In this document: in pieces, positions 5,173 to 24,772 of the stretch | How the letters are laid out: the number at the start of each line of letters is the position of its first letter | Numbering within the stretch: the first letter of the stretch is position 1 | Virus record (IMG/VR): IMGVR_UViG_3300006332_000040 | Location: 1 to 26,858 of that record | DNA from: a virus | Reading direction: 5' to 3' (one strand) | Length of the DNA stretch: 26,858 nucleotides | Program-made: the position numbers and the translations under genes | The notes under the pieces: model-generated | The model's database searches: none | Told to the model about the DNA's origin: nothing | What the model saw: only the letters and a program-made list of their open reading frames with translations

Positions 5173-8100
5173 CTAATGTTCCTGATATCCCTTATATTTA
5201 AGAGGATTAAACCTTTCTACAATGAGAGATGTAGTAATACCAGTAATTCCACTTTGTGTATATGCAGTATAAGAATTTAACCCTGCTCTGGAAGTAAGGT
5301 CAATTCTACCCCAACTATATGTTCCCATATAATCAGAAGTTGATATTCCAGATGTAGTACTTAATCCATGCGGACCATTACCATCAACTTTTACAAAGAC
5401 TCGTCGAATAGTAGTTGTTCCACCACCAATTACTTTTTCAATTTCCTCAGTACTATTTACTTGATACACATTATCTACAAATGATGTTCCTATTCCGACA
5501 GTAGATCCTGCAACATCCAGTGAAGTAATAGAAGTAGATCCTGTACCCATATTGGAGTTACTTACAACAAAGTAATCATCAGTTCCTATTCCACTTACAG
5601 TAACTGCGGTTCCTGTCAGATTACCATCCCTCATGAATGAATCGAATGGAATAAAGAGATCAAATATTAATTGAGTTCCTGAAGCAATAGTTGTAGTTCC
5701 GAAACCAACAATATTTCCCTGATCACCGGCATATGTGCCTACGGGGTTATCCTCATCAGTTAATACAGGATGACTGATAAGCACAGAAGGAACATCAGTC
5801 CAAGTATATCCAACACCAGGATTAGTAATAGCAACCCCAGTTACAGTTCCTACACCGCTTAGGGTTACAGTTCCCATTGCTTGGGTAGTTGTACCCACAC
5901 CTACGGTAGAAGCAATACTTACAACCGCAGTAGTATATCCAACACCACCATCTGTAATATCAATAGAAGAAATAGTTCCAGCAGCAGAAACAATAGCAGT
6001 GGCAGCAGCTCCTGTTAGAGTTTCTTGTTTAATAAATTTCACTTTATCTTGGAAAGATAATTGAGTTTTATCTTCTTTTTCATTATAAGTATCAAATAAT
6101 GGTCTTAAAGAATCCACATAAACGGTAGTAGATCCGATACCCACTGTCTTAGTAATATATGCAAATGGATGAATTTGAGGTTCATAATGTTCTCTATCCT
6201 TACCAATAGGTAATTCGTTAATAATTTTATCCTCAGTTTGTCTACACCATTCAACAGGTCTTTCAAGTGATTCATCTGCGCTATTACCAGGACCATAATA
6301 TGGATTGGTAGTAACTAGATCAGTAGAATCTACACGCATAACAGTTCTTGGATCTTCTACTAAATGCTGTTGTTGATCTGGTAAACGTCCAATCTTTAAG
6401 GTATCACCTTTCTTAACTGTTTCAATAATTTCTCTATCAATAACATCAGCAGCACCACTTCCTTTATAGAAGATGACCTTGGAAGTATCATCTTTCTTCG
6501 GTGCTTCTGTGAAAGTAACTATACTACCACCATCAAATTTATATCCTTTACCAGGAACTTGAAGGATGTCATTAATCCAAATAAGAAGAACATCTTGAAC
6601 ATTAATTTGAGATCCTTTACGTGAACGAATTGAAATCAAATCTCCACCATTTTCAGTTAATTGGAAAGTAGTTGTATCACCATCAAAATCATCATCCCAA
6701 TTATCGAGTACTTGAAGAAGTCCAACAGACCATCCAGTAAATTCATCATTAAAGGTTTCTGTTATTTCAACAAGGAATTCTTCATAAGAAGAAGTAGTTG
6801 GAATACCGGTTGTTCCACCAATAGGAACAGTAAGGAATTCGCCATTTCCATAACCATATCCTGTTTCATCAACTCTAAAATTAACAATACTGGATCCTTG
6901 TCCTACCACTACATCAATAGTAGCAGCAGTTCCAATTCCACTATAACCAGAAGCATATTGTAGAGTCATATTGGAATAAGAAGTAGGATCGTCAAATACC
7001 ACATCCATTGATCTCTGTAAAGATCCACCTCTTGCATAGAAGTGTTCTAATGTCGAAACTCCTGTATTAATCTCAAAAGTCTTATTATCCAAAACTCTTA
7101 AAACAGTGGTTCCCCCCGAAGCAGGATCAGTCTTACTTGCAGAGAAGTTATTTGCCCTAGGAGCCATAATTGCTCCCTGAACAGAACCTAATCCCACATA
7201 ATAAGATGGAACAGTAGAGATACCAATATTAACTTCAAATTCAGTAGTACTATTAATAGCAGTAATATCTACACCACTATAAGTAGGATCGGGTTTTCTA
7301 GGATACCTATGAGTTGTAATTCCACCATCCTTAGCACAAGTAAATTTAAGAGATTCAGTAGCAATTTTAATACTATTTCCCTGACTCAGACCATGATCAC
7401 CAATTGTCATCGTCATGATACCAGTGCTAGGACTATAATCTGCAGCAGTTACATCATACTTGATTATAGTAGAGACACCTACATTTAAAGTAATAGTATT
7501 AGCACTAACAGTAGTAATTCCTAAGCAGGTACTAAATCCAGGATCACTATATCGTGGATAAGTATGCAGAGTCGCATAATCATCCATGGAACATCTAAAG
7601 GTTAAACTATCTTGTTCAACCTTCACAGATTCTCCCATCTTATGAAGTCCGCCAGCAGAAGCAGATACAAATGTATGAATTCCAGTGTAAGAAGAAGGAA
7701 TATTATCTAACACTTGAACTTCAAATGAGGTGCTACCTATACCTGAAATAGATCTCCACTTTCCACTAAATGGATCGGTAGTACTTCCTGAACCAGATCT
7801 TGGATATGTCTTATTAGCAGTATGTCCATCTAATGCACAAGTGAAGGTTAATGAATCATTATCAAAACGAACTTTATCTCCACTAGAGAATGAATTTGCA
7901 GTACCAACAAAGACCGTCATAATACCTGATACAGGATTATACTGAGCAGCAGTTACTGTGTGAGTACTTGGTCCAGTAAGACTATGATTACCAATAGTTA
8001 AAGCCAGTTGTCCACTAGATGCAGTATAACTAGCATCTGAAACATTATAGTAAGATAATGGAGATGAACCCACATTAACAGTAATAGTTGAACTTCCTAC

Positions 8101-11100
8101 CCCAGTAATTGCTGTAACTCCCATTCCTGTAATAGGATCACTGGAACGAGGATATGCATGAGCACTTGTATTTGAATCTAATGAACAAGTAAAGACTATG
8201 GCATTTGTAGAGAATCCTACAGTATCATCTGTGGTGTACGTATGACCTGCTCCAACCGTCAATACTAAATCACCAGTTGATGCATCATAAGAAGCAGCAG
8301 TAGGAGTGGTAGTACCTATTCCTGTTACCGTAACTCCACCACCAACAGCACTTACAAAAGTATGAGTGTAATTACCACCAGTAACTACGGCACTGCTTGC
8401 TGCACTTACAAATTGATGAGTGTAGTCCCCACCTGTAATTACTGCACTGGTTCCTACACCAACGAATGTATGAGCAAATTGATCAGCAGGACCACCATAA
8501 CCAACATTAACGGTAATCTTTCCATCATTAAGGGTAATACCATTTGTAGTCGATCCTACAAAAGTATGAGTACTTGTATTAGTTGAAGGTGTTACACTTA
8601 GAACTTGAATTCTAAAAGTATTAGTAGTCTTATTAGAAATCTCTACCCATTGTCCAGCAATTGGATCTGTCTCTCGTGGATAAGTATGAGTTGTTTCATT
8701 ATCATCTTTCGCACAAGTAAAGGATAATGAATTAAGTGCTAATTTAACCTTATCACCATTAGATAAACCATGAGAAGGGACTGTAAGCGTCATAACACCT
8801 GTGGTGGGGTTATATGAGGCATTTGTTACTGTACTCTTAGTTCCGTCTCCTGTAATAGCAACTGCGGTATCATATGCTAAGTCTTGACCTCGTGGATAAT
8901 AATGAGTAGATTCTCCATTATCTAAACCACAAGTAAATGCAAGTCCAGTAAAGATAACACGACTTGTTTTGCCAGTAGTATTATATCCATGAGGACTAGC
9001 AGTTGTAACTGTCATAATACCCGTAGCGGTATTATATCCTACGGCACTAATACCCAAACGTGGTGAATATGCACAAGTGAATGCAATACCAGAAAGATCT
9101 ATCTCATCTCCTAATGATAATTCATGAGGAAGATGAGTAGTAACTGTTGTAAGACCTTGAGCAGTGCTATAACCTACATGGGCAATACTCTTTGCCTTAG
9201 AGAATACATAAGGGTTAGTTACAGCAACACCAGTTATGTAACCATCACTAATTGCAGCAGTACCAATAGCAACAATATTTGTTCCTGTTAAACTTTCTTG
9301 TTGAATGGAAACATTAACTGTTTGAATACCTGATCTATATCCAGAACCAGTATATCCAAGACTAATAGAACTGACAGTACCAGCAGTGGAAACAATTGCC
9401 GTTCCACCCGCTGCCACTAGTGGTTGATATCCAAATCCTTCACTAGATCCAACACTAACAATAACTCCACCCATTGGAAGATTTGAACCGCCTGGATCTG
9501 AAGCAATAGAAGTCGCAGTTCCAGTAAAGGTTATAGAAGAAATGCCAGCACTTTCTGCAATAGTATACTGATAAGTACTTCCATTGGCCTGGAAAATATC
9601 ATTAACAAGAATGATAGAATCAGTTTGAATACCTGTTACATTTGCACCATTAGATTCTAAGGTAAAGGTATTATTAATTCCGTTAAATTGATTAGAAAGA
9701 CTGTCAAATATATAATTCTCTGTATAGGATTCATTACTACCCCCAGTCTCACCTGAACGCATAAAGGTTCTTCCTTGGAAATGAGATCCAGTTGATATTC
9801 CAACCCAATCCCTATCATCAGGTGGATTGGTAGTACTACTTATAGGAACATTCCCATAAGGTGCCTCAGTGAACGTTAGAAGGTTGTTAACGATGTTATA
9901 GTTACCAATAACCTTAGTTACTAGTGCATCGGTAGCATGACCCACCAGGGTCGTTCCTAACCACTCTCTACGCACTCTAATTTTATTGGTGCTACCAATA
10001 CCAACTCCTTCAATTTTCATAATCTCATCATCAATCTTAATGAGATCGGCACCAAAGAATGAGGTTATTCCACTAAATTCTGCAATATTCTGAACTCCCA
10101 AAAGTTCATTAGAAAGAGTAGTTGTAACAGCAGTAGAGACAACAGGTGACTGAATGATATTATCCAGTGCCATCAATACTTTTTGATTCTGTTTCTGAGA
10201 AATAAATCTATGAGAAGTACCAATACCCACGCTGGTAATATCTACTGTCTCTGGTACAATCTTTAATGCTTTTTCTGCTGTTTCAGCAATCTTAATAGTA
10301 TCATCATTAACTTTAACAACGAATACTTCTGAAGGTAAGAAGGTCGTTGTACCCACTCCAACAAATCCGTCAGTGGATGCTATTCCGATACCAGAATTAG
10401 AAGTTCCTACATGATTATAAGTAATTTTCTCACCAGTAACCCAGAAGTGATTAGGTACTGTAATAGTATTATCAGCCGTGTCTACTAGTCCACCATCATT
10501 TGCTAAGAAATATCTTTCAAAGATATTATAGTTCTTATGTGTTAAATTGAATGATCTCTTAATATCTCTTTCAGTACCAGTATAAGTCTCAAATCCACTT
10601 TCGATAGTTGCATTAGTAAAGTCAATTTCATCCTTAGATGCAACAACATTCTTTAATGCATTCATATAAGTCTTAACTTCTACCGCAATACTTGCATTAG
10701 GTTGGAAGTATAAAGAAACCGTTCCTAAACCACTAATTCCAGTAGACCAATAACCTAAATCAGAATGAGTGTTAACAGTTGCATATTCAGTATCATAAGT
10801 TTGAACGCTAACAGAAGGATCTTCAATATAATTATCAACAACAATAATTTCCGATGTTTGATAATGATTATTAGTTGTATCGGTAACTTGAACTAAGAAA
10901 TGTGCTCCCTCATAATCATTTGAATACTCAGCAACAGGTACTGCTATAGGAGTTCCAGAAGCAGCAATATCTTTTGTTCTGGCCTCTATTAAAGCATGGT
11001 TCATTTGAATAGTACCAATACCAGAAGAGGTCTGTGCTATTGCAACGTAAATTGTATTAACAACACAAGTTGTACCGATACCAGCATTAGGAACAAAATC

Positions 11101-14100
11101 AAGTTTTAAGTCAGTTCCATCGATATAAGGATAATAAGTTCCATAACCAGCTCCCGAATAACCACCAGGAACAGTAAGTAATTCTCCATATTCTAAAATC
11201 TGAACATCCGATCCATCATGAAGAAGATTAATTTCATCAAACTGCCATTCACTACTATTGATATCACCAGTACCACTGGCATCAGGGGTAATCTCAACCA
11301 ACACCTTCACAGAACGATATGTGCTTGCAATACCTACAATATTAGTTGTGGTGCCAGTAGGAACCTTAGTACTAGAAGATTGAATTATTGCAACATCACT
11401 TAAAGCAGTAGTTCCTATTCCTAAGAAATTATCATTTAAATTATAAGAAAGACATGTAATATCATAATCATTAACACTAAACTTATTAGGATACCATTGT
11501 AATTGTCCTAAATCACCACTAATGGCAAAATCAAAGGAACCTTGATCGTATTCAGTTTCAACTCTTCCATACTGGTTAATATATCCAAATGCCCCATCAT
11601 GTAAAAGATCAACAATCATTAATTGTCGTTCTTGGGTATATCTTTGATCTACCACATAAGTAATATATTTTTGTGCTCTTATATCTGCTAACTTAAATGT
11701 ATCTACGACACTATACTTGGTGGCCCGTGGATTACTATTGAAAGTCCCACTCATATCATCAATAGAAAGAACTCTGTTACCCACAGATTCCTGATAATCC
11801 ATCAAAATTCTATTTGAGAATATTATTTCATCAGAAACAATAGTAGGAAGATTTAATGAATTCTCCGTAACCAAATCAAAGTCTTGAACACAGTTGAGAT
11901 CACCATATCCTATTAAATCTGTTACAACTTCAAGAGAAGTTGTTTGAGTGGTTAATCCCACTCTCATTGAACTGTCTTTATTAGTTGTCTCCATCTGATA
12001 ATCGGAGAACTTCTTAAATCCAGCAGTATGATTTATAGAACTTACTACATCATTCCATTTTTCCTCTGCAACTCTTGATCTTAATGCATAAGAGAAATTT
12101 TGATAGTAATAACTATCTTGAACTCTTTGCATATTATAGTTAAGAACACCTGAATCAGTTTCCCATCCATGCAATACCTTAGATGTTGCATCTAAATTCA
12201 TAATAGAATTAAAGGATCTTATAGAAGTAGCAGTTCCTTGAGTATTAGATGAATCTCCACGAATGACTTCACCAACTTTAAAATCATCAGCAGATGATAT
12301 TTTTAATATTTCATTATTAAGATCCCATTGTTCTACTGTACCAGAAGCAGAAGCAGATGTAACTGTTTCTCCTTCTAGGTATTCCTGAGTTGTTAAATTA
12401 ATATCAAATACTGGGAAATATTTTTCTGGAATAATTCTACCAGAAGAATTAGCAACATCAAATGTACCAATATCTACACCCTCATCAATTAATGATGACA
12501 TGCTATATGTTATAGTAGCACCTACACCACCAATATTCTTATCAAGTGAAGTGACTGTGAAAAGTGCATGATTATAATCCGCTGAATTAAAGTTCTTTCC
12601 AGTAGATCCTACACCAACACTAATACCCTCTATAAGGAATTTGTCATTTATTTCAAATGGGAATATATTTGCCGTACTAAATCCTACTGATAATTTAACA
12701 AACGCATCTCTAGTAACAGTATTAAATCCAACAGTACTAATACCAACACCATTACTATTTTCTACAGGAATAATAGTTGGAGGATATGCTCTACTCAATC
12801 CAGTTGGATTTCTGTAAATAGTAACTTGTTGATCTCCTAATTTATAACGAATATCAACATTAGAAACTTGTTTCTTACTTTTACCATCAAAAACAAGAAG
12901 TTTAGGAGGTGCTTGATATCCTCTTCCTTGGGATGTTATTCCAATAGATTCAAAAGCAGCAAGATGATCTATATCAACAATTTGAGGAAGTAATATACTA
13001 GGTTGTAAAGTAGTATCAGATGGGAAATTATATCCAATATTATTAATCTCAGTCCTCTTAATAGAACCCACAGAAGTACTAGAAGGTTCGATAACTGCGG
13101 TAGTTCCTACAACGGAAGTAACAGTAGAAATTCCAGGAATAGTATAGTAATTTGCTCCCTTATCAATTACATTAAACTTCTTAATTGGTCCTAATGCACT
13201 ACTAGAAGTAGTGTCATATATTACAGTAGAAACAGTGGATGCATAAGAAGGTTGTTCAGGTAATTGAGCAATAGTATATGTAAAATCAGTTGTAGAAGAA
13301 GTTGTAATAACCTGTTCTCCATTATAAAGTGAATATTCAGTTATAATCTCATTTCCTGCATTAACATCTTCATCTACTACAATTTCTTTCTTAACATTAG
13401 GAAGATCACTTTCATAAGTATAATCCAATTTATAATACAGAGTGGGAGTATACTCATTAATACTTACATTAACCTTAGCACCCACAGCTCCTACTGTTCC
13501 TATTCTATCAATTGCAAAGTTAGGATCTGCGGGAGATTTATACCATAGATTAGTGAAATTCTTATCAGTATAGAAATTAAGTTCAAATGCAGGATAGGTT
13601 GTACCTTGGATTGTATAAGATAATGAAGAATCAGATACATCAAATGAAGCCGTTGAATCTTGATAGAATCTAAGTTGTGGATTTATGGAGTTAATATTTC
13701 CACTGGCTGTACTTGCAACTCCAACAATAGATGGTTTAGATAAAGTTGAATTATAATGGGTATCAGATAATTTAAAGTTATTCTCATCAGTTCTTACAAT
13801 ATAATATATTCCATTATTTTGTAATCCTTCTATAATAGAAGTATCCGCAGTATAAAGAACTTTTTGTCCTGTTACAAATCCATGATTGGTTATTGTAAAT
13901 GTATCAGTAGAAGTATTAACACCGGTGGCAATAAATGATTTGGGATTAACTAATAATCTTCTACTATAATCATTATACTTTAAGGTAATATCAGTTGTAA
14001 CTCCTGGATTTACATCAATGGTTACCTTATCATTATTTGTTAGACCGTGTGTAGACCCCCCAGAAACGGTTACAAGGTTCCTTGAAACTTCCGCAGTAAT

Positions 14101-17100
14101 TGGATCATAATTAGTCTTAAGACTATGGTATACATCCGTTCCGAGACCTGTGAAGAAGAACGTACTTGAAGCGGTAGTAGCAATTCCTACCCAAGTGCCT
14201 GTGGTACCCATTCCAACGGTAACACTGGATAATCCTATTAAAGTATCATTAATTTTAGCAACATAAAGAGTGTCACCATCAGACAATGTAGATATTCCAC
14301 TAGGATAAGAAGCTTCCTGACGTAGAACTACTAATCCACTTCCACCATTAGGAGAATAAGTGATTTTATCATTACTTTGTAAATTATGACCAGGAATATA
14401 AAGAGTTTTTGTAGGTACAAAGATCTCAGTAATTCCAGTTCCTGGATTTGAAAGAGAAATAGTAGTTCCAATACCAACAGCAGCAGTTGTACCTAATCCA
14501 ACTGTTTCAGATGGATTGAAATAAATCTGTCTATTCCTTCGAGCATTATAAGTGGTATTAAATCCAGCATTAATAGTTAAACGACGTTGATCTTGATATA
14601 AGAAAGAAGTAACAGTATGAGCTGCACCTATGGTACCATCAACTGCTCTTAAAACTCTAATCCTATCAAATTCTGGTTGTACATTAAGAACCTTTACTCT
14701 CTCAGAAGCAATCTTTAAAATATCATTAGGTTCAATAGCAGGATAAGAAAGATTACCACTCACATTGAAAAATGTTACAAATCCTGTTGTACCGGTAACT
14801 GCAATTCCTGTATTATCATAAGTTCCAATACCAGTTACAACAAATCTATTTGTAGAAACCCCTATATTATAAATTCCTCCAATATTAGAAGATGTTGTTG
14901 AAAGTCCACTAACAGTAACAGTATCAACATTCTTAAAATTATGAGGATTATCTGCTCTTAAAATATATTCTCCCCTAGTATTACCAGGATAAACCTGAAC
15001 ATTACTAATAGTACTAGATGCAACACTTATACTATTAACATCTTTACCACCAATAACAGAAACCTTTGCAACAGCTCCATATCCTTGAGTATCTGTATTA
15101 TCAAAAACAGCTGAATCTCCTACTTGATAAAGGGTACCGCCTGTTAAGATTCCTACATTTTCAATAACCCCAGGAGTTACAGATTTAATATCAATAGTTT
15201 GAGATAACTTATCAGGAATATAACAATATTCATATTGGAGATCACCTTCTATTAAATTATAAGGTGCAGTATTCCTCACCCATGAAGAATTATCTAAATC
15301 GATACTATCTTGATTTGATGCATAACTAAAGTTGAAATCATGAGGAATAGAATGATAATTAGCCCCTATTAAGTATGGGAAAACAGGTCTCTTATATCCA
15401 TTAAATACTCCACCTGAATCTGCGGATCCATTGTTAATAGTAGTAAAATAAGCATAGGTTCCTTTGGGGAATTCAGGAGTTATACAGAATCTTCCATTAT
15501 TCTCATCCAGAACAGTTGGATCTTCGACATCTTTATAAACATAATCTTCAACAAAGAATCCTTGAGGATATAAGGAAGTAGGTGGTCTTTGATCAGGTGA
15601 ATCAAGACTATAACCACTCTGCATTTGAGCAACTACTCCTCCCGACCTCTTGACATATCCATAAGGACCATATATTGGATTCCCATCATATGCCCATCCC
15701 AATATAGGAGAATGTTGATCGGATTCAACTTCTCTTCCACCTAGAATTTTTAAATCTTTATCTCCATATAACGTTACTCCTCCTTGATCGGTAGCATATA
15801 CCGACTCTCTAAGTTTTCTAGGTGCATATAAAGCAGAATACTGCAATCCTCTATCCACATTAAATTCTTGGGGAATATATCCATCATCAGCAGTAAAGTT
15901 GGCAAAATGTCTTTCAAATAAATTAATCGTCCAAGTTTGAACATCAGGATCAAATTCAACGCCACTTCCAGGAAATTCTACGTTAATACTCGTAGTTGAT
16001 TGAGAATATCCATTACCTCCATGAATTACATTAACAGCACTAATCTGGTCATTCACCATAACAGGAGTAATAACTGCACCTATTCCATCTCCATTAATAG
16101 TTAAAGTAGGAGGACAATTATATCTTTCCCCTGCTTTTAAAACTACTACTTCTGTAATAACTCCATTAGCTACAATGGGAGATAATTGAGCATCATCTCC
16201 TGATGATAATCGGACTAAAGGTTCTCTATTAAGATTAATAATCTCCGAATTTCCATATCCAACTCCACTACTCATTAAATGAACAGAAGTTATTTCTCCT
16301 CTGAATATGGGCTGAATATCACATTCAAATGTTTCTGTACCAGTAGATGCTATACCAACATTACCAATTACTTGTATAGAAATTTCTGGATAATTAAAAG
16401 TTTGTGTTCCTACACCAACAGAAGTAAAATCAATATACTGTTTTGACTTATAATAAAAATCTTTATTCGTTGTTCCTATACCCACAGATGATAGTTTAAA
16501 ATTATCACTATCAATAGCAGTTACATAATATTCAGTACTTGCAGAAAGACCTCCGATTACACTATCAGTAGTCTCTACATAATTGATAACTTCTCCTGAT
16601 TTATAATCATGATTACTAATATTAATTTGATTTAGAGCTGTATTAATACCTGCTGCACTTTTAACAGTTCTCTTTTTATTTTCATATCCAGAACCTGAAT
16701 TAAGTACATTAATACCTTCTACAATGGTTTTCTTATTATAAGACTGAATATATTGCTTACCTATTCCATGAGAAGTCAAGGAAATGGTGTTAATCCCTAT
16801 TAAAGCATCTCCTTCATTAGAATGTAATTTAACACTTGTTAATCCAACCAAAGAAACATAATAAGCAGAATCCGTAGTGATTCCGCCAATAGGTTGTTGA
16901 TTATTAGTGTCATAAATGACTCTTTCCCCAGAACTAAACTTATGATAAGTACCAAATCCAATAGTATCTAAATTTAAGTTAACTTCGGGATAAACTTCTC
17001 CACCTTGAGAATTAAAAGAGACTGAATGAGTTGCTTCCTTCATATTGGCAGAAGCTAATGCACCAGATCCATTACCCCCCTCAATTGTTATAATAGGAGT

Positions 17101-19542
17101 TCCTTGATAATCAAATCCCCCATCTAAAATACGAATATCTTTTAAATTTCCAGAAACTGCCACATATCCCGTTGCACCTATTCCAGTATTATCACTAATA
17201 TTCAACAAAGGTGGATTTATAATATCATAATCAATACCAGAATTTACAACATCAATTTTATTAATTTTTCCGTAATTAATAGAACTTCTAGACTTATAAT
17301 TACAAATCTGAACCCCATTAATTAACATGCCTGTCAATCCGGGCGCAGTTTCAGTTATATTACCATCTTCATCGGGAGAAACGAATTCTCGCAACAAATT
17401 TTGAGATTCTAAAATTTTATGCTTAAAACTAGATGGTAAAATCTTGCAATTGGTTACATCAATACTATTATCCAGAGAAATGAATGTACCAGTACTAATA
17501 TTTGTTCTATTTTGTGCTAATTTGATATTATTAGCATCTACACGATATACAAAATAAATTTTTTCATTTGGAGGGATTCTATCTTTAACTTCTTGCGATC
17601 CAACTAATCCTGTAACAATATATCCAATATCTCCAGCAAATAAAGAAGAATTAACCTTTACACCTGTTTTTTTCGTACCAGTAGAAGTGAAATATTCATA
17701 ATTAACCTTCTCAGGTATATAATAAACTATTTCTCCTGTATAAAATCCATGATCACTAAATGGACTTATATTCCATTCTTCTCCAATATAAGTTCCTGTA
17801 AAAGTAACAGTTTGGGAGTAAACATCAAGAGGTTGATTATCGTATGAAGGAAGAGAAGGAGAAGCAACTAAAAGTTTACTATTATTTTTATAAACATTCT
17901 GAATATTAGCTGTATATAAAGAAGAAGAAGGAAAACTACTAGAATTAACCGTTAAAATATTACGTTTAATATCCCAAGTTGTATTAAGATTTAAATTTCC
18001 TTGTCCTCTAATGACAATAGACTTCGCAGAAGGAATATTAATAATACTAGTAATCTTTTGTGCATCGTTAGCATCAATAAGAGTTGCAGCATCCCCTATT
18101 CTGAAATAATGATTTACACTAAGAGTAATTTCATAAGTTAAATCAGAAGAATCTAATAATTTAACACTTTTTACCTTATAACTAGGAGCAACATTATAAA
18201 ACCAGTTCTTAGATTTAAATTTAGTGTCTTCAACACCTAAAGTTCTTATTTTAGCAGTATCTCCTTTGGAATAATAATAAGTATTGTCTGTAATATCATA
18301 TTTACCTAAAACGGCGTTAATTCTAACCCTAATTGGATCATTTGGATCACTAAAAGACTGACCATACGCAAAAGTGTTGATTCCAATTGATGTTGCATTA
18401 GCAATAGTACTTGTAATATTATCCAAACCAAAGAATTGGTTTAAAGATTTGGATTTATAAGAAGCAATGCCTGTTGTACCATCCTTATACTCAATATAAA
18501 GGTCTCCAGTCGCTCCAAAACCCACTGTGGAGTCAACAATAAGCGAAGTAACACCAGATCCCACTTCCCCTATAAGACGAGTCTTTGGTGAAACGTTAAA
18601 TTCTCCATAAATTGCACCATCAACCCTAATATCTCTATTATATCCTGCATCAATACTTAATTTATAATAAGTTTGACCAAATCCAGCTTCAATGGGTTCT
18701 ACTGATGTAATAGGAGCATAGGCTTTATTAATATCACTTTCAAAAGGTTCTTGAAATAAGGTAGAATGTTCAAGATCTAATGGATTACCACTAATTGATT
18801 CTACTACAAGATCATTTGTAACTCTATAATTAGCATTTGAAGGTGTAAAGAGAAAATCTCTTGGTCTCACAATTCTTACATCTTCATTATATAATGCTCT
18901 AAATAAAATTTTAAAAGAGTTATCACTACCTTTACTTAAATAAAAATCCTTTGCTTGTTTAATAAAAATATTCTGATCTAAATCAGAATGAAGCTGTCTA
19001 TCATCAAATCCAGGAGTAAATTGACGTTTTGTTTTTAATAAGAATTGGTGTAAAAATAAAACACTTAAATTGGTAATCGTAGCACCGGCGTTATGAGAAC
19101 GTCGAGAGGTATCTTTAAAAACTAATTGATCAGACGCTGCATCTTTGTGATAAGATGTGACTCCACTAAAACCTCTTATACATCCACTAAAAGAAGAATC
19201 TGTTTTACTTGTATATGTAATAACCTCATCATCTATCTGTATTAAACCATAAGTATCAGGAAATCCTCTGGTTCCTGTGGGAGATTTTTCTAAATCAACA
19301 TTTATCGTCCTACCGTATGAAGTAAGACCATCATCTAAAATAACAGAAGTTTGAAGATTTGTCTGTTCCTGAACCTTAATATATTGATCAATATTTTGCA
19401 GTAGATCCAAAGGACCACTTTGATATTCTTGACCCTGATAATAAGATTTAAAGAACTCAGCAACTAAAGGAAAGTCCTCCTGCACATAAGCAGGAAGCTG
19501 ATTCTGAACTATGTTACTAAACTTAACTCTATTTTCTGGCAT
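5173..19542 (-). CDS. giant modular virion structural protein (4789 aa)
   Basis: One uninterrupted frame of 4789 residues (about 500 kDa), starting one base after the gp6 stop, so it belongs to the late baseplate operon. The start MPENRVKFSNIVQNQLPAYV and the following 300 residues look like the N-terminus of the large, poorly characterised structural proteins of T4-like cyanophages. Modules visible in order: an 'IDDEVITY...CIRGFSG' motif at 103-125, repeated at about 1604-1650 (RIRVLRAVDGTIGAAH) and 3171-3213 (VRREWLGTTLVGHATDA); GGxGY beta segments at about 760-1220; a YHYH-like core at 1281-1400; a less repetitive block at about 2490-2735 (LLHDGAFGYINQYGRVETEY); seven FTC...YPR repeats at about 3455-4125; and two 'ILVNDILQ' segments at about 3300 and 4310. 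It has few Cys, no signal peptide and no membrane segment. Its position between gp6 and gp8 suggests a baseplate-attached fibre or adhesin. Host-receptor contact is inference only. Confidence 0.9.
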   Translation of the reverse strand: MPENRVKFSNIVQNQLPAYVQEDFPLVAEFFKSYYQGQEYQSGPLDLLQNIDQYIKVQEQTNLQTSVILDDGLTSYGRTINVDLEKSPTGTRGFPDTYGLIQIDDEVITYTSKTDSSFSGCIRGFSGVTSYHKDAASDQLVFKDTSRRSHNAGATITNLSVLFLHQFLLKTKRQFTPGFDDRQLHSDLDQNIFIKQAKDFYLSKGSDNSFKILFRALYNEDVRIVRPRDFLFTPSNANYRVTNDLVVESISGNPLDLEHSTLFQEPFESDINKAYAPITSVEPIEAGFGQTYYKLSIDAGYNRDIRVDGAIYGEFNVSPKTRLIGEVGSGVTSLIVDSTVGFGATGDLYIEYKDGTTGIASYKSKSLNQFFGLDNITSTIANATSIGINTFAYGQSFSDPNDPIRVRINAVLGKYDITDNTYYYSKGDTAKIRTLGVEDTKFKSKNWFYNVAPSYKVKSVKLLDSSDLTYEITLSVNHYFRIGDAATLIDANDAQKITSIINIPSAKSIVIRGQGNLNLNTTWDIKRNILTVNSSSFPSSSLYTANIQNVYKNNSKLLVASPSLPSYDNQPLDVYSQTVTFTGTYIGEEWNISPFSDHGFYTGEIVYYIPEKVNYEYFTSTGTKKTGVKVNSSLFAGDIGYIVTGLVGSQEVKDRIPPNEKIYFVYRVDANNIKLAQNRTNISTGTFISLDNSIDVTNCKILPSSFKHKILESQNLLREFVSPDEDGNITETAPGLTGMLINGVQICNYKSRSSINYGKINKIDVVNSGIDYDIINPPLLNISDNTGIGATGYVAVSGNLKDIRILDGGFDYQGTPIITIEGGNGSGALASANMKEATHSVSFNSQGGEVYPEVNLNLDTIGFGTYHKFSSGERVIYDTNNQQPIGGITTDSAYYVSLVGLTSVKLHSNEGDALIGINTISLTSHGIGKQYIQSYNKKTIVEGINVLNSGSGYENKKRTVKSAAGINTALNQINISNHDYKSGEVINYVETTDSVIGGLSASTEYYVTAIDSDNFKLSSVGIGTTNKDFYYKSKQYIDFTSVGVGTQTFNYPEISIQVIGNVGIASTGTETFECDIQPIFRGEITSVHLMSSGVGYGNSEIINLNREPLVRLSSGDDAQLSPIVANGVITEVVVLKAGERYNCPPTLTINGDGIGAVITPVMVNDQISAVNVIHGGNGYSQSTTSINVEFPGSGVEFDPDVQTWTINLFERHFANFTADDGYIPQEFNVDRGLQYSALYAPRKLRESVYATDQGGVTLYGDKDLKILGGREVESDQHSPILGWAYDGNPIYGPYGYVKRSGGVVAQMQSGYSLDSPDQRPPTSLYPQGFFVEDYVYKDVEDPTVLDENNGRFCITPEFPKGTYAYFTTINNGSADSGGVFNGYKRPVFPYLIGANYHSIPHDFNFSYASNQDSIDLDNSSWVRNTAPYNLIEGDLQYEYCYIPDKLSQTIDIKSVTPGVIENVGILTGGTLYQVGDSAVFDNTDTQGYGAVAKVSVIGGKDVNSISVASSTISNVQVYPGNTRGEYILRADNPHNFKNVDTVTVSGLSTTSSNIGGIYNIGVSTNRFVVTGIGTYDNTGIAVTGTTGFVTFFNVSGNLSYPAIEPNDILKIASERVKVLNVQPEFDRIRVLRAVDGTIGAAHTVTSFLYQDQRRLTINAGFNTTYNARRNRQIYFNPSETVGLGTTAAVGIGTTISLSNPGTGITEIFVPTKTLYIPGHNLQSNDKITYSPNGGSGLVVLRQEASYPSGISTLSDGDTLYVAKINDTLIGLSSVTVGMGTTGTWVGIATTASSTFFFTGLGTDVYHSLKTNYDPITAEVSRNLVTVSGGSTHGLTNNDKVTIDVNPGVTTDITLKYNDYSRRLLVNPKSFIATGVNTSTDTFTITNHGFVTGQKVLYTADTSIIEGLQNNGIYYIVRTDENNFKLSDTHYNSTLSKPSIVGVASTASGNINSINPQLRFYQDSTASFDVSDSSLSYTIQGTTYPAFELNFYTDKNFTNLWYKSPADPNFAIDRIGTVGAVGAKVNVSINEYTPTLYYKLDYTYESDLPNVKKEIVVDEDVNAGNEIITEYSLYNGEQVITTSSTTDFTYTIAQLPEQPSYASTVSTVIYDTTSSSALGPIKKFNVIDKGANYYTIPGISTVTSVVGTTAVIEPSSTSVGSIKRTEINNIGYNFPSDTTLQPSILLPQIVDIDHLAAFESIGITSQGRGYQAPPKLLVFDGKSKKQVSNVDIRYKLGDQQVTIYRNPTGLSRAYPPTIIPVENSNGVGISTVGFNTVTRDAFVKLSVGFSTANIFPFEINDKFLIEGISVGVGSTGKNFNSADYNHALFTVTSLDKNIGGVGATITYSMSSLIDEGVDIGTFDVANSSGRIIPEKYFPVFDINLTTQEYLEGETVTSASASGTVEQWDLNNEILKISSADDFKVGEVIRGDSSNTQGTATSIRSFNSIMNLDATSKVLHGWETDSGVLNYNMQRVQDSYYYQNFSYALRSRVAEEKWNDVVSSINHTAGFKKFSDYQMETTNKDSSMRVGLTTQTTSLEVVTDLIGYGDLNCVQDFDLVTENSLNLPTIVSDEIIFSNRILMDYQESVGNRVLSIDDMSGTFNSNPRATKYSVVDTFKLADIRAQKYITYVVDQRYTQERQLMIVDLLHDGAFGYINQYGRVETEYDQGSFDFAISGDLGQLQWYPNKFSVNDYDITCLSYNLNDNFLGIGTTALSDVAIIQSSSTKVPTGTTTNIVGIASTYRSVKVLVEITPDASGTGDINSSEWQFDEINLLHDGSDVQILEYGELLTVPGGYSGAGYGTYYPYIDGTDLKLDFVPNAGIGTTCVVNTIYVAIAQTSSGIGTIQMNHALIEARTKDIAASGTPIAVPVAEYSNDYEGAHFLVQVTDTTNNHYQTSEIIVVDNYIEDPSVSVQTYDTEYATVNTHSDLGYWSTGISGLGTVSLYFQPNASIAVEVKTYMNALKNVVASKDEIDFTNATIESGFETYTGTERDIKRSFNLTHKNYNIFERYFLANDGGLVDTADNTITVPNHFWVTGEKITYNHVGTSNSGIGIASTDGFVGVGTTTFLPSEVFVVKVNDDTIKIAETAEKALKIVPETVDITSVGIGTSHRFISQKQNQKVLMALDNIIQSPVVSTAVTTTLSNELLGVQNIAEFSGITSFFGADLIKIDDEIMKIEGVGIGSTNKIRVRREWLGTTLVGHATDALVTKVIGNYNIVNNLLTFTEAPYGNVPISSTTNPPDDRDWVGISTGSHFQGRTFMRSGETGGSNESYTENYIFDSLSNQFNGINNTFTLESNGANVTGIQTDSIILVNDIFQANGSTYQYTIAESAGISSITFTGTATSIASDPGGSNLPMGGVIVSVGSSEGFGYQPLVAAGGTAIVSTAGTVSSISLGYTGSGYRSGIQTVNVSIQQESLTGTNIVAIGTAAISDGYITGVAVTNPYVFSKAKSIAHVGYSTAQGLTTVTTHLPHELSLGDEIDLSGIAFTCAYSPRLGISAVGYNTATGIMTVTTASPHGYNTTGKTSRVIFTGLAFTCGLDNGESTHYYPRGQDLAYDTAVAITGDGTKSTVTNASYNPTTGVMTLTVPSHGLSNGDKVKLALNSLSFTCAKDDNETTHTYPRETDPIAGQWVEISNKTTNTFRIQVLSVTPSTNTSTHTFVGSTTNGITLNDGKITVNVGYGGPADQFAHTFVGVGTSAVITGGDYTHQFVSAASSAVVTGGNYTHTFVSAVGGGVTVTGIGTTTPTAASYDASTGDLVLTVGAGHTYTTDDTVGFSTNAIVFTCSLDSNTSAHAYPRSSDPITGMGVTAITGVGSSTITVNVGSSPLSYYNVSDASYTASSGQLALTIGNHSLTGPSTHTVTAAQYNPVSGIMTVFVGTANSFSSGDKVRFDNDSLTFTCALDGHTANKTYPRSGSGSTTDPFSGKWRSISGIGSTSFEVQVLDNIPSSYTGIHTFVSASAGGLHKMGESVKVEQDSLTFRCSMDDYATLHTYPRYSDPGFSTCLGITTVSANTITLNVGVSTIIKYDVTAADYSPSTGIMTMTIGDHGLSQGNSIKIATESLKFTCAKDGGITTHRYPRKPDPTYSGVDITAINSTTEFEVNIGISTVPSYYVGLGSVQGAIMAPRANNFSASKTDPASGGTTVLRVLDNKTFEINTGVSTLEHFYARGGSLQRSMDVVFDDPTSYSNMTLQYASGYSGIGTAATIDVVVGQGSSIVNFRVDETGYGYGNGEFLTVPIGGTTGIPTTSSYEEFLVEITETFNDEFTGWSVGLLQVLDNWDDDFDGDTTTFQLTENGGDLISIRSRKGSQINVQDVLLIWINDILQVPGKGYKFDGGSIVTFTEAPKKDDTSKVIFYKGSGAADVIDREIIETVKKGDTLKIGRLPDQQQHLVEDPRTVMRVDSTDLVTTNPYYGPGNSADESLERPVEWCRQTEDKIINELPIGKDREHYEPQIHPFAYITKTVGIGSTTVYVDSLRPLFDTYNEKEDKTQLSFQDKVKFIKQETLTGAAATAIVSAAGTISSIDITDGGVGYTTAVVSIASTVGVGTTTQAMGTVTLSGVGTVTGVAITNPGVGYTWTDVPSVLISHPVLTDEDNPVGTYAGDQGNIVGFGTTTIASGTQLIFDLFIPFDSFMRDGNLTGTAVTVSGIGTDDYFVVSNSNMGTGSTSITSLDVAGSTVGIGTSFVDNVYQVNSTEEIEKVIGGGTTTIRRVFVKVDGNGPHGLSTTSGISTSDYMGTYSWGRIDLTSRAGLNSYTAYTQSGITGITTSLIVERFNPLKYKGYQEH
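7170..9190 (-). repeat. seven degenerate FTC...H-x-YPR repeats in the giant protein
   Basis: Seven copies of a unit built as 'YN/YSP-x-TG-x-MT-x-T-x-x-HGL-x-x-GD-x-(I/V)', then SLxFTCAxD, then H-x-YPR-x-x-DP, then a Thr/Val beta segment. The Cys-containing cores are FTCAYSPRLG, FTCGLDNGES, FTCAKDDNET, FTCSLDSNTS, FTCALDGHTA, FRCSMDDYAT and FTCAKDGGIT. The first is degenerate and lacks YPR. Units are 80-120 residues long with variable linkers, so these are protein-level repeats and not a tandem DNA satellite. Each keeps one Cys, and most keep one His before YPR. Confidence 0.85.
8330..8480 (-). repeat. three short HTFVSA-type repeats (about 18 aa each)
   Basis: Inside the FTC/YPR region the protein reads HTFVGVGTSAVITGGDYT, then HQFVSAASSAVVTGGNYT, then HTFVSAVGGGVTVTG, at about residues 3688-3738. 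The DNA units of 54-57 bases are recognisably similar (ATGAGTGTA followed by an accaccagtaa-like stretch on the plus strand). This looks like a recent local duplication. Confidence 0.75.
15320..15700 (-). other. YHYH-like conserved core inside the giant protein
   Basis: Residues 1281-1301 carry GWAYDGNPIYGPYGY, and residues 1346-1364 carry DENNGRFCITPEFPKGTYAY, followed near 1389 by FPYLIGANYHS. The 'DGxPIYGPxGY ... NGR ... TPEFPxGTYAYF' pattern is what I associate with the YHYH domain of cyanobacterial and marine phage structural proteins. It is the most conserved-looking part of an otherwise repetitive protein, so it is probably a folded functional core. I do not know its ligand. Confidence 0.65.
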
Positions 19543-23998: not shown

Positions 23999-24172
23999 TT
24001 ACCAACTGACGGGATTTGACAGATCTTCAGTAATACTTTCTACGGACTCATTTGGTTCCAATTGTAATACTTTACGCCAGTCAATTTGCCTTGGATTAAA
24101 ATCATCTTCTACTGTAATATCCAACGTTATTCTATACCTTTGCTCTGTACGGTTGTAGTAAGAAACTGTCAT
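23999..24172 (-). CDS. small hypothetical protein, 57 aa
   Basis: Begins MTVSYYNRTEQRYRITLDIT, continues VEDDFNPRQIDWRKVLQLEP and ends NPVSW. It shows two beta-type stretches, then a helix and an acidic stretch (ESVESITED). No membrane segment and no known domain. A near-consensus sigma70 promoter ends 31 bases before the ATG, and no terminator is seen directly after the stop, so read-through into the 42-residue gene is possible. The codon pattern (many third-position A/T) matches its neighbours. There is no strong Shine-Dalgarno. Confidence 0.68.
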   Translation of the reverse strand: MTVSYYNRTEQRYRITLDITVEDDFNPRQIDWRKVLQLEPNESVESITEDLSNPVSW

Positions 24173-24202
24173 CGGATTAAAGGGGATGAGTGTTAATAAT
24201 TC

Positions 24203-24231
24203 ATTCTAACATACAGTATAATAACTGTCAA
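24203..24231 (-). promoter_or_regulatory. sigma70 promoter (TTGACA-17-TAGAAT)
   Basis: The minus strand has TTGACA at 24226-24231, a 17-base spacer and TAGAAT at 24203-24208. It precedes the 57-residue gene starting at 24172, with a predicted leader of about 25 bases. Confidence 0.78.
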
Positions 24232-24270
24232 TATGTGTCAGTTATTTATGTGTCTTATGTAACAATAATC

Positions 24271-24296
24271 GAACCTAAACTATCGGTTCTAGTTTA
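24271..24296. repeat. overlapping inverted repeats
   Basis: TAAACTA (24276-24282) pairs with TAGTTTA (24290-24296) across TCGGTTC. Alternatively, GAACC (24271-24275) pairs with GGTTC (24285-24289). The two pairings exclude each other. It could be a protein-binding site or a small switching hairpin. Confidence 0.4.
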
Positions 24297-24351
24297 TACT
24301 GAACTGGTTTGGTATTAGTGCTACAAAATATTACCGAGGGTCTTGTAATAT

Positions 24352-24380
24352 CGCTCGCTTCGTGTTATACTACGCTCGCT
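24352..24380. repeat. direct repeat CGCTCGCT spaced by 21 bases
   Basis: CGCTCGCT occurs at 24352-24359 and again at 24373-24380, start to start 21 bases, or two helical turns, so both would face the same side of the DNA. These GC-rich octamers stand out in AT-rich DNA and resemble a two-copy iteron. Confidence 0.5.
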
Positions 24381-24439
24381 AAGATAACAACAAAAAGTAT
24401 CATTTATCTGAGCATATTAGAGACAATTAATATCACCTT

Positions 24440-24615
24440 TTATCCACATATTATACAGTACTTATTAACACTTTCTCCACCGTATTACATAGGGTTTTAT
24501 ACAACATTGTGGAAAACGTTTAAATCGCTCATGTATATTTAATTTGCTATTTATTAGAGCAAAATAACATAAATTAAAGAGTTTTCCACAGGTTATGAAT
24601 ACTTTCTGTGGAAAA
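24440..24615. other. cluster of four DnaA-box 9-mers
   Basis: TTATCCACA at 24440-24448 (plus) is the E. coli consensus. TTTTCCACA, the form reported for cyanobacterial DnaA boxes, occurs at 24508-24516 (minus), 24582-24590 (plus) and 24607-24615 (minus). At this base composition, well under one match would be expected in 450 bases. The last two form the arms of the 13-bp hairpin. Confidence 0.6.
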
Positions 24616-24618
24616 CTC
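24579..24618 (-). terminator. 13-bp perfect hairpin after the 49-aa gene
   Basis: GAGTTTTCCACAG and CTGTGGAAAACTC form a perfect 13-bp inverted repeat with a 14-base loop, 4 bases after the stop at 24623. On the minus strand TTTAATTTATG follows, so it can act as the terminator of the small-gene operon. Because each arm contains a DnaA box, it may also be a protein-binding palindrome. Confidence 0.6.
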
Positions 24619-24622
24619 CCTA

Positions 24623-24772
24623 TTAGTTGTTGTTAGTTAGATCATGTAATTTGTCCTTATAATACTCTTTTTCCTCTTGGTTTATATGCGGACTATGTAT
24701 CATTATCTGACAGTAATCTATCCATTGTTTATTAGTCCAATCTCTCTTCGGTTTGTTATAATCTTTGAGCAT
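24623..24772 (-). CDS. small hypothetical protein, 49 aa
   Basis: Begins MLKDYNKPKRDWTNKQWIDY, continues CQIMIHSPHINQEEKEYYKD and ends KLHDLTNNN. It is mostly helical, charged, with Trp and Tyr residues and no membrane segment. AGAGAGGTAAT directly before the ATG is a good ribosome binding site, and a 13-bp hairpin follows the stop. It is the last gene of a run of four small genes (25252 down to 24623). I do not recognise a function, although phage proteins of this kind often bind host enzymes. Confidence 0.75.
   Translation of the reverse strand: MLKDYNKPKRDWTNKQWIDYCQIMIHSPHINQEEKEYYKDKLHDLTNNN

Follow-up and report, generated by a model that had tools for sequence, protein, structure and literature searches.

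A conserved cluster of DnaA-type boxes in a candidate origin-like control region of cyanomyoviruses

A 450 bp gene-free element in a cyanomyovirus (Kyanoviridae) genome fragment carries a cluster of DnaA-type boxes, and its counterparts in related phages occupy the same genomic address. The sequence evidence suggests that it may be a conserved origin-like control region of cyanomyoviruses that is assisted by host DnaA and resembles oriE of phage T4, a reading that we hold to be finely balanced. That the boxes are of true DnaA type is well supported by their 9-mer identity, 9 bp unit, phasing and synteny, and host DnaA is likely to bind the element. Literature searches found no description of a cyanomyovirus replication origin and nothing relevant on DnaA boxes in cyanophages.

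The window, meaning the whole stretch of DNA analysed here, is a virus record of 26,858 bp whose baseplate wedge genes are homologues of those of cyanomyoviruses. The element is flanked by a 57-aa gene (start 24172) on one side and a 49-aa reading frame ending at position 24623 on the other. Exact matches to TTWTCCACA number four in the whole window, all inside the element and spanning 176 bp, which confirmed the positions reported in a first-pass annotation of four DnaA-box-like 9-mers, in both orientations, within 176 bases of a 450-base gene-free gap (Table 1). The comparison with shuffled sequence proposed there also bore out the cluster: whole-window shuffles contained a mean of 0.93 matches and reached four in 2 of 100 cases, a count that leaves the clustering within 176 bp out of consideration, and no copy of the 9-mer lies elsewhere in the window. 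The same annotation had found the boxes and missed the phased inverted pair, the two divergent promoters and the elements of boxless relatives. Elsewhere in the window, positions 5173–19542 form a single, unusually long reading frame of 4,789 aa, followed by gp6 and gp25; this frame sits where cyanophage records have the baseplate wedge initiator.

Table 1. Features of the element and its adjoining gene, in window coordinates.
Feature	Position	Strand	Basis or remark
Whole element: box cluster, AT-rich stretch and divergent promoters	24173..24622		450 bp, gene-free
DnaA-type box TTATCCACA	24440..24448	+	Exact 9-mer search
DnaA-type box TTTTCCACA	24508..24516	-	Exact 9-mer search; kept in alignment of relatives
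DnaA-type box TTTTCCACA, left half of convergent pair	24582..24590	+	Exact 9-mer search
DnaA-type box TTTTCCACA, right half of convergent pair	24607..24615	-	25 bp start to start; pair phasing
13-bp inverted repeat enclosing both paired boxes, 14-bp centre	24579..24618		No T-run called as terminator
AT-rich low-stability stretch between boxes, possible unwinding region	24519..24580		Stability scan and alignment; NATAAATA late-promoter-like motifs
Predicted antisense sigma70 promoter TTGTAA-N17-TATACT, extended -10 (TGT before)	24343..24371	+	Points toward boxes
Predicted sense sigma70 promoter TTGACA-N17-TAGAAT, TG before -10	24203..24231	-	Upstream of 57-aa gene
57-aa gene (phrog_12516), adjoins element	23999..24172	-	Unrelated small gene instead in S-RIM50, S-RIM8, Syn9 and P-SSM7

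Relatives were gathered via the genes neighbouring the element, and nearly all TTWTCCACA matches in the gathered loci fell within the same gap. A profile search of these loci (nhmmer) identified element homologues in 144, including the isolates Bellamy, S-SM2 and SynMITS9220M01. Across 62 dereplicated elements, the most enriched 9-mer, determined with no prior choice of word, was TTTTCCACA, with 168 copies versus none in 449 kb of flanks of the same loci. A Markov model predicted ∼0.3 copies in the box-bearing elements and ∼5 in their flanks, so the elements hold several host-type 9-mers far above chance. A chance cluster was rejected on the shuffles, this enrichment and the Markov expectation. 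Most elements have three to five boxes, and for single boxes the conserved unit is exactly 9 bp, with nothing conserved beyond the 9-mer. Alignment across related phages, another check suggested by the first-pass annotation, showed the 9-mer kept at the same place. Read along the late-gene strand, the aligned elements start with the convergent box pair, followed by the AT-rich stretch with its NATAAATA motifs. Next come one lone box, boxes of degenerate sequence and a conserved block, after which a TATAAATA motif and a TTGACA-N17-TATAAT promoter lead up to the small gene.

The boxes are missing from 12 of the 62 homologous elements, which retain both promoters and the AT-rich stretch, and the use of DnaA would therefore be clade-specific and not universally needed. 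The box cluster was likewise not found in several isolates (Bellamy, P-SSM2, S-CAM9 and SynMITS9220M01). Some boxless elements feature TATCTG[TG]GG repeats, with eight copies in 4.1 kb versus none in 91 kb. Boxless loci include L029, L082, L084, L090, L091, L098, L100, L101, L110 and L115, and in several of these the repeats take the form TATCTG[TG]GG(TGTCT), perhaps the site of another protein; one further locus (L020:600-1164) has an array of CATTCGTGATTAGATAAGTTTCGT-like repeats at the element position instead of boxes. Three loci (L130:3037-3110, L145:949-1015 and L128:7545-7610) carry two tandem box pairs (> < > <) with long TTTTTGAGATTTTTGAG repeats nearby. Many IMG/VR contigs (L005, L007, L010, L014, L019, L026, L030 and others) end inside or beside the element, within their first 10–600 bases, as if assembly breaks occur there.

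The address of the element is also conserved. Viral contigs were scanned for convergent pairs, which gave a lower bound on the contigs that carry them; among the matches listed with both flanking genes recognisable on the contig, the pair keeps one orientation and lies upstream of gp25-gp6. This address holds, among the matches listed, down to a gp6 identity of ∼30%. The cultured isolates P-SSM7, S-RIM50, S-RIM8 and Syn9 all have the pair upstream of gp25-gp6, and boxes also occur in the corresponding region of P-TIM68 and DSL-LC02. The small gene downstream belongs to two unrelated families in different clades while the element stays, and the element is therefore more than a single gene's operator. 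In S-PM2, a site 7.6 kb upstream of gp25 (L663, S-PM2 19231-19264) has three boxes at DnaA-like spacings of 13 and 12 bp, in a stretch annotated as tRNA genes.

The distances between boxes follow the turns of the DNA helix. Convergent pairs peak at 13, 23–24, 34–35 and 55–56 bp, and direct pairs at 11–12, 21, 32, 42 and 52 bp, of which 11–12 bp is the commonest. With one pair taken per strictly dereplicated locus, phasing at 10.5 bp gave R = 0.76 for both direct (n = 79) and convergent (n = 134) pairs; the maxima in 20,000 random draws were 0.35 and 0.31, respectively. The convergent scans were confined to set distance ranges and direct pairs were never a selection criterion, and the two series are partly linked, as a + - - triplet gives both. 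For the reversed control word, one spacing of ∼19 bp dominates among the matches listed, with no periodic series. The count of inverted pairs across viral contigs was dropped as evidence, since the count for the reversed control word was likewise only a lower bound. Escherichia coli DnaA prefers a gap of 2–3 bp between boxes (PMC11317965), which corresponds to 11–12 bp from start to start and therefore matches the main direct peak; the spacing fits cooperative DnaA. Close direct pairs 2–3 bp apart also characterise the double DnaA boxes and datA-type loci of E. coli (PMC11317965), whereas the present element lies on a lytic phage genome and has convergent pairs at 13, 23 and 34 bp in addition. 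Similarly phased TTTTCCACA pairs occur in 77 dereplicated loci that are not cyanophage-like (among L135-L542, such as L397, L427 and L469). The contigs of these loci are viral and carry no cyanophage proteins, and phased DnaA boxes on phage genomes may be a wider phenomenon.

For comparison with the hosts, we sampled oriC in 80 cyanobacterial genomes as the sequence upstream of dnaN, located with a DnaN query that matched well. Upstream of dnaN in Prochlorococcus, TTTTCCACA is present in 13 of 18 loci, with 21 copies in the 450-bp regions versus one elsewhere, and arrays of TAGTAGTAG trios are also enriched. The phage word is therefore the Prochlorococcus one; the first-pass annotation had given the 9-mer as a form from cyanobacterial replication regions. 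The oriC boxes of marine Synechococcus and relatives are mostly TTTCCCCAG- or TTTTCCAC[CG]-like; by group, marine Synechococcus, Cyanobium and relatives mostly use TTTCCCCAG/TTTTCCCCA and Prochlorococcus uses TTTTCCACA. Box type in the phages does not track the host, as the Synechococcus phages S-RIM8 and Syn9 have TTTTCCACA. Host-specific switching, in the form of TTTTCCCCA boxes in Synechococcus phages, was rejected because the boxless elements contain none. Phage elements and Prochlorococcus oriC both have clustered TTTTCCACA boxes near AT-rich DNA, but the phage element differs from a bacterial oriC in lacking a trio array, dnaA and dnaN, in its spacing pattern and in being surrounded by phage genes. 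DnaA-trios, sought as (TAR)3, are not enriched in the elements although the host oriC has them, a departure from the oriC type, and the few data on host oriC box spacings do not mirror the phage peaks.

Both promoters of the element are predictions from consensus matches. The sense promoter was found in 59 of 62 elements. The antisense promoter, of the sigma70 type with an extended -10, is the conserved block read on the opposite strand; it was present in 47 of 58 elements versus ∼1% of shuffles, and in all 12 boxless elements. The predicted antisense RNA has no reading frame of at least 30 codons in 40 of 44 elements, and a coding function for it was rejected as unlikely on this count. Two direct repeats of CGCTCGCT (24352-24359 and 24373-24380), 21 bp apart, lie either side of the antisense -10 and could be an operator. 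Of the 50-bp segments in the region, the least stable ranks at the 99.6th percentile of instability within the whole window, where at least 12 other sites are less stable. No switch in GC skew occurs at the element in four complete cyanophage genomes, and skew in these is mostly driven by the coding strand.

To our knowledge, no described T4 origin involves DnaA, and T4-type phages are regarded as DnaA-independent. In the T4 GenBank record, oriE is annotated immediately upstream of gene 6 and its primer RNA is complementary to the late transcript; oriF is placed beside gene 25. T4 oriE uses an early promoter, and its iterons are conserved at syntenic sites, while oriF and oriG have a promoter and a downstream AT-rich element; the review that describes them makes no mention of DnaA (PMC3016281). 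Like oriE, which adjoins genes 5 and 6, the element is near baseplate gene 6, has an early sigma70 promoter that points into it antisense to the late genes, and has short repeated sites that are syntenic among relatives near baseplate genes. It differs from oriE in that the latter has 12-nt iterons with no known binder in place of DnaA-type boxes, and an early transcript that encodes RepEA and RepEB, whereas the antisense RNA of the element has no long reading frame, and so no RepEA or RepEB, in 40 of 44 elements. The succession of a promoter and an AT-rich stretch adjoining gene 25 recalls oriF/ori(uvsY), which instead relies on a MotA middle promoter and lacks initiator boxes. On paper the element resembles a T4-type origin, and it is a candidate member of that class.

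The most serious alternative, although an unlikely one, is that DnaA serves purely as a transcription factor at the element. The phased boxes would then be operators through which the divergent early promoters are repressed or timed, tying early phage expression to the state of host DnaA, while replication starts elsewhere. Regulation by DnaA at box pairs is known (PMC11317965), the two divergent promoters are near-consensus, the sense promoter of 16 of 62 elements has a box between its -35 and -10, and the element contains late-promoter-like NATAAATA motifs. However, most boxes surround the AT-rich stretch, 100–400 bp from the sense promoter, they persist while the downstream gene family changes, and the arrangement resembles T4 oriE/oriF.

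Titration of host DnaA is improbable. The first-pass annotation had offered, beside recruitment of host DnaA for early replication, a trap in which multicopy phage DNA would sequester DnaA and stop host initiation. The three to five boxes of most elements, multiplied by phage copy number, would suit a trap, as would the absence of TTTTCCACA from the rest of the box-bearing loci, but a trap needs neither a fixed conserved address nor promoters nor an AT-rich stretch, and boxless relatives exist. It is accordingly the less favoured of the two proposals. Slightly less probable again is a phage-encoded or other protein, such as an iteron-binding initiator or regulator, whose site equals a DnaA box by coincidence. 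The other repeats in some boxless homologues and the independence of box type from that of the host oriC are compatible with such a protein, yet identity at nine of nine positions with the host oriC word and the DnaA-like spacing of 11–12 bp would be two coincidences, and no candidate protein was found. An RNA hairpin, either an intrinsic terminator or a structured RNA, is very improbable and was rejected: the 13-bp inverted repeat folds with a z of -5.05 as a single strand, but it has no T-run following a GC-rich stem, no terminator call and no Rfam match, its arms do not vary beyond the 9-mer, in Syn9 just 9 bp are paired, and the helical-turn spacing of convergent and direct pairs alike, for which an RNA stem has no need, argues for a protein on double-stranded DNA.

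Recruitment of host DnaA for early replication has the best support of these readings, given the oriE-like context of promoter and AT-rich stretch in which the boxes lie; origin activity is what we infer from this context, and we give initiation of replication at the element an even chance. Early in infection, host DnaA would bind the phased boxes cooperatively, form an array along one face of the helix and help to open, or hold open, the adjoining AT-rich stretch. Host RNA polymerase starting at the antisense promoter would transcribe this stretch into a short non-coding RNA, which could persist in an R-loop and serve as primer for the phage replisome, following the logic of T4 oriE/oriF; such priming is a tentative proposal that we consider less likely than initiation itself. 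DnaA bound close to the sense promoter may also tune early transcription. It is conceivable, though we lean slightly against it, that host DnaA drives an oriE-like origin with an antisense non-coding primer in a large clade of lytic T4-like phages, and that some sister clades replaced the boxes and kept the promoters.

The syntenic phased element in the cultured isolates P-SSM7, S-RIM8, S-RIM50 and Syn9 provides a precise candidate for the start site of phage DNA synthesis. Many T4-like viruses of ocean cyanobacteria probably start or time the copying of their DNA at this element with help from the host. If so, cyanophage replication would be coupled to the initiator protein of the host and hence perhaps to the host's cell cycle and day-night rhythm.
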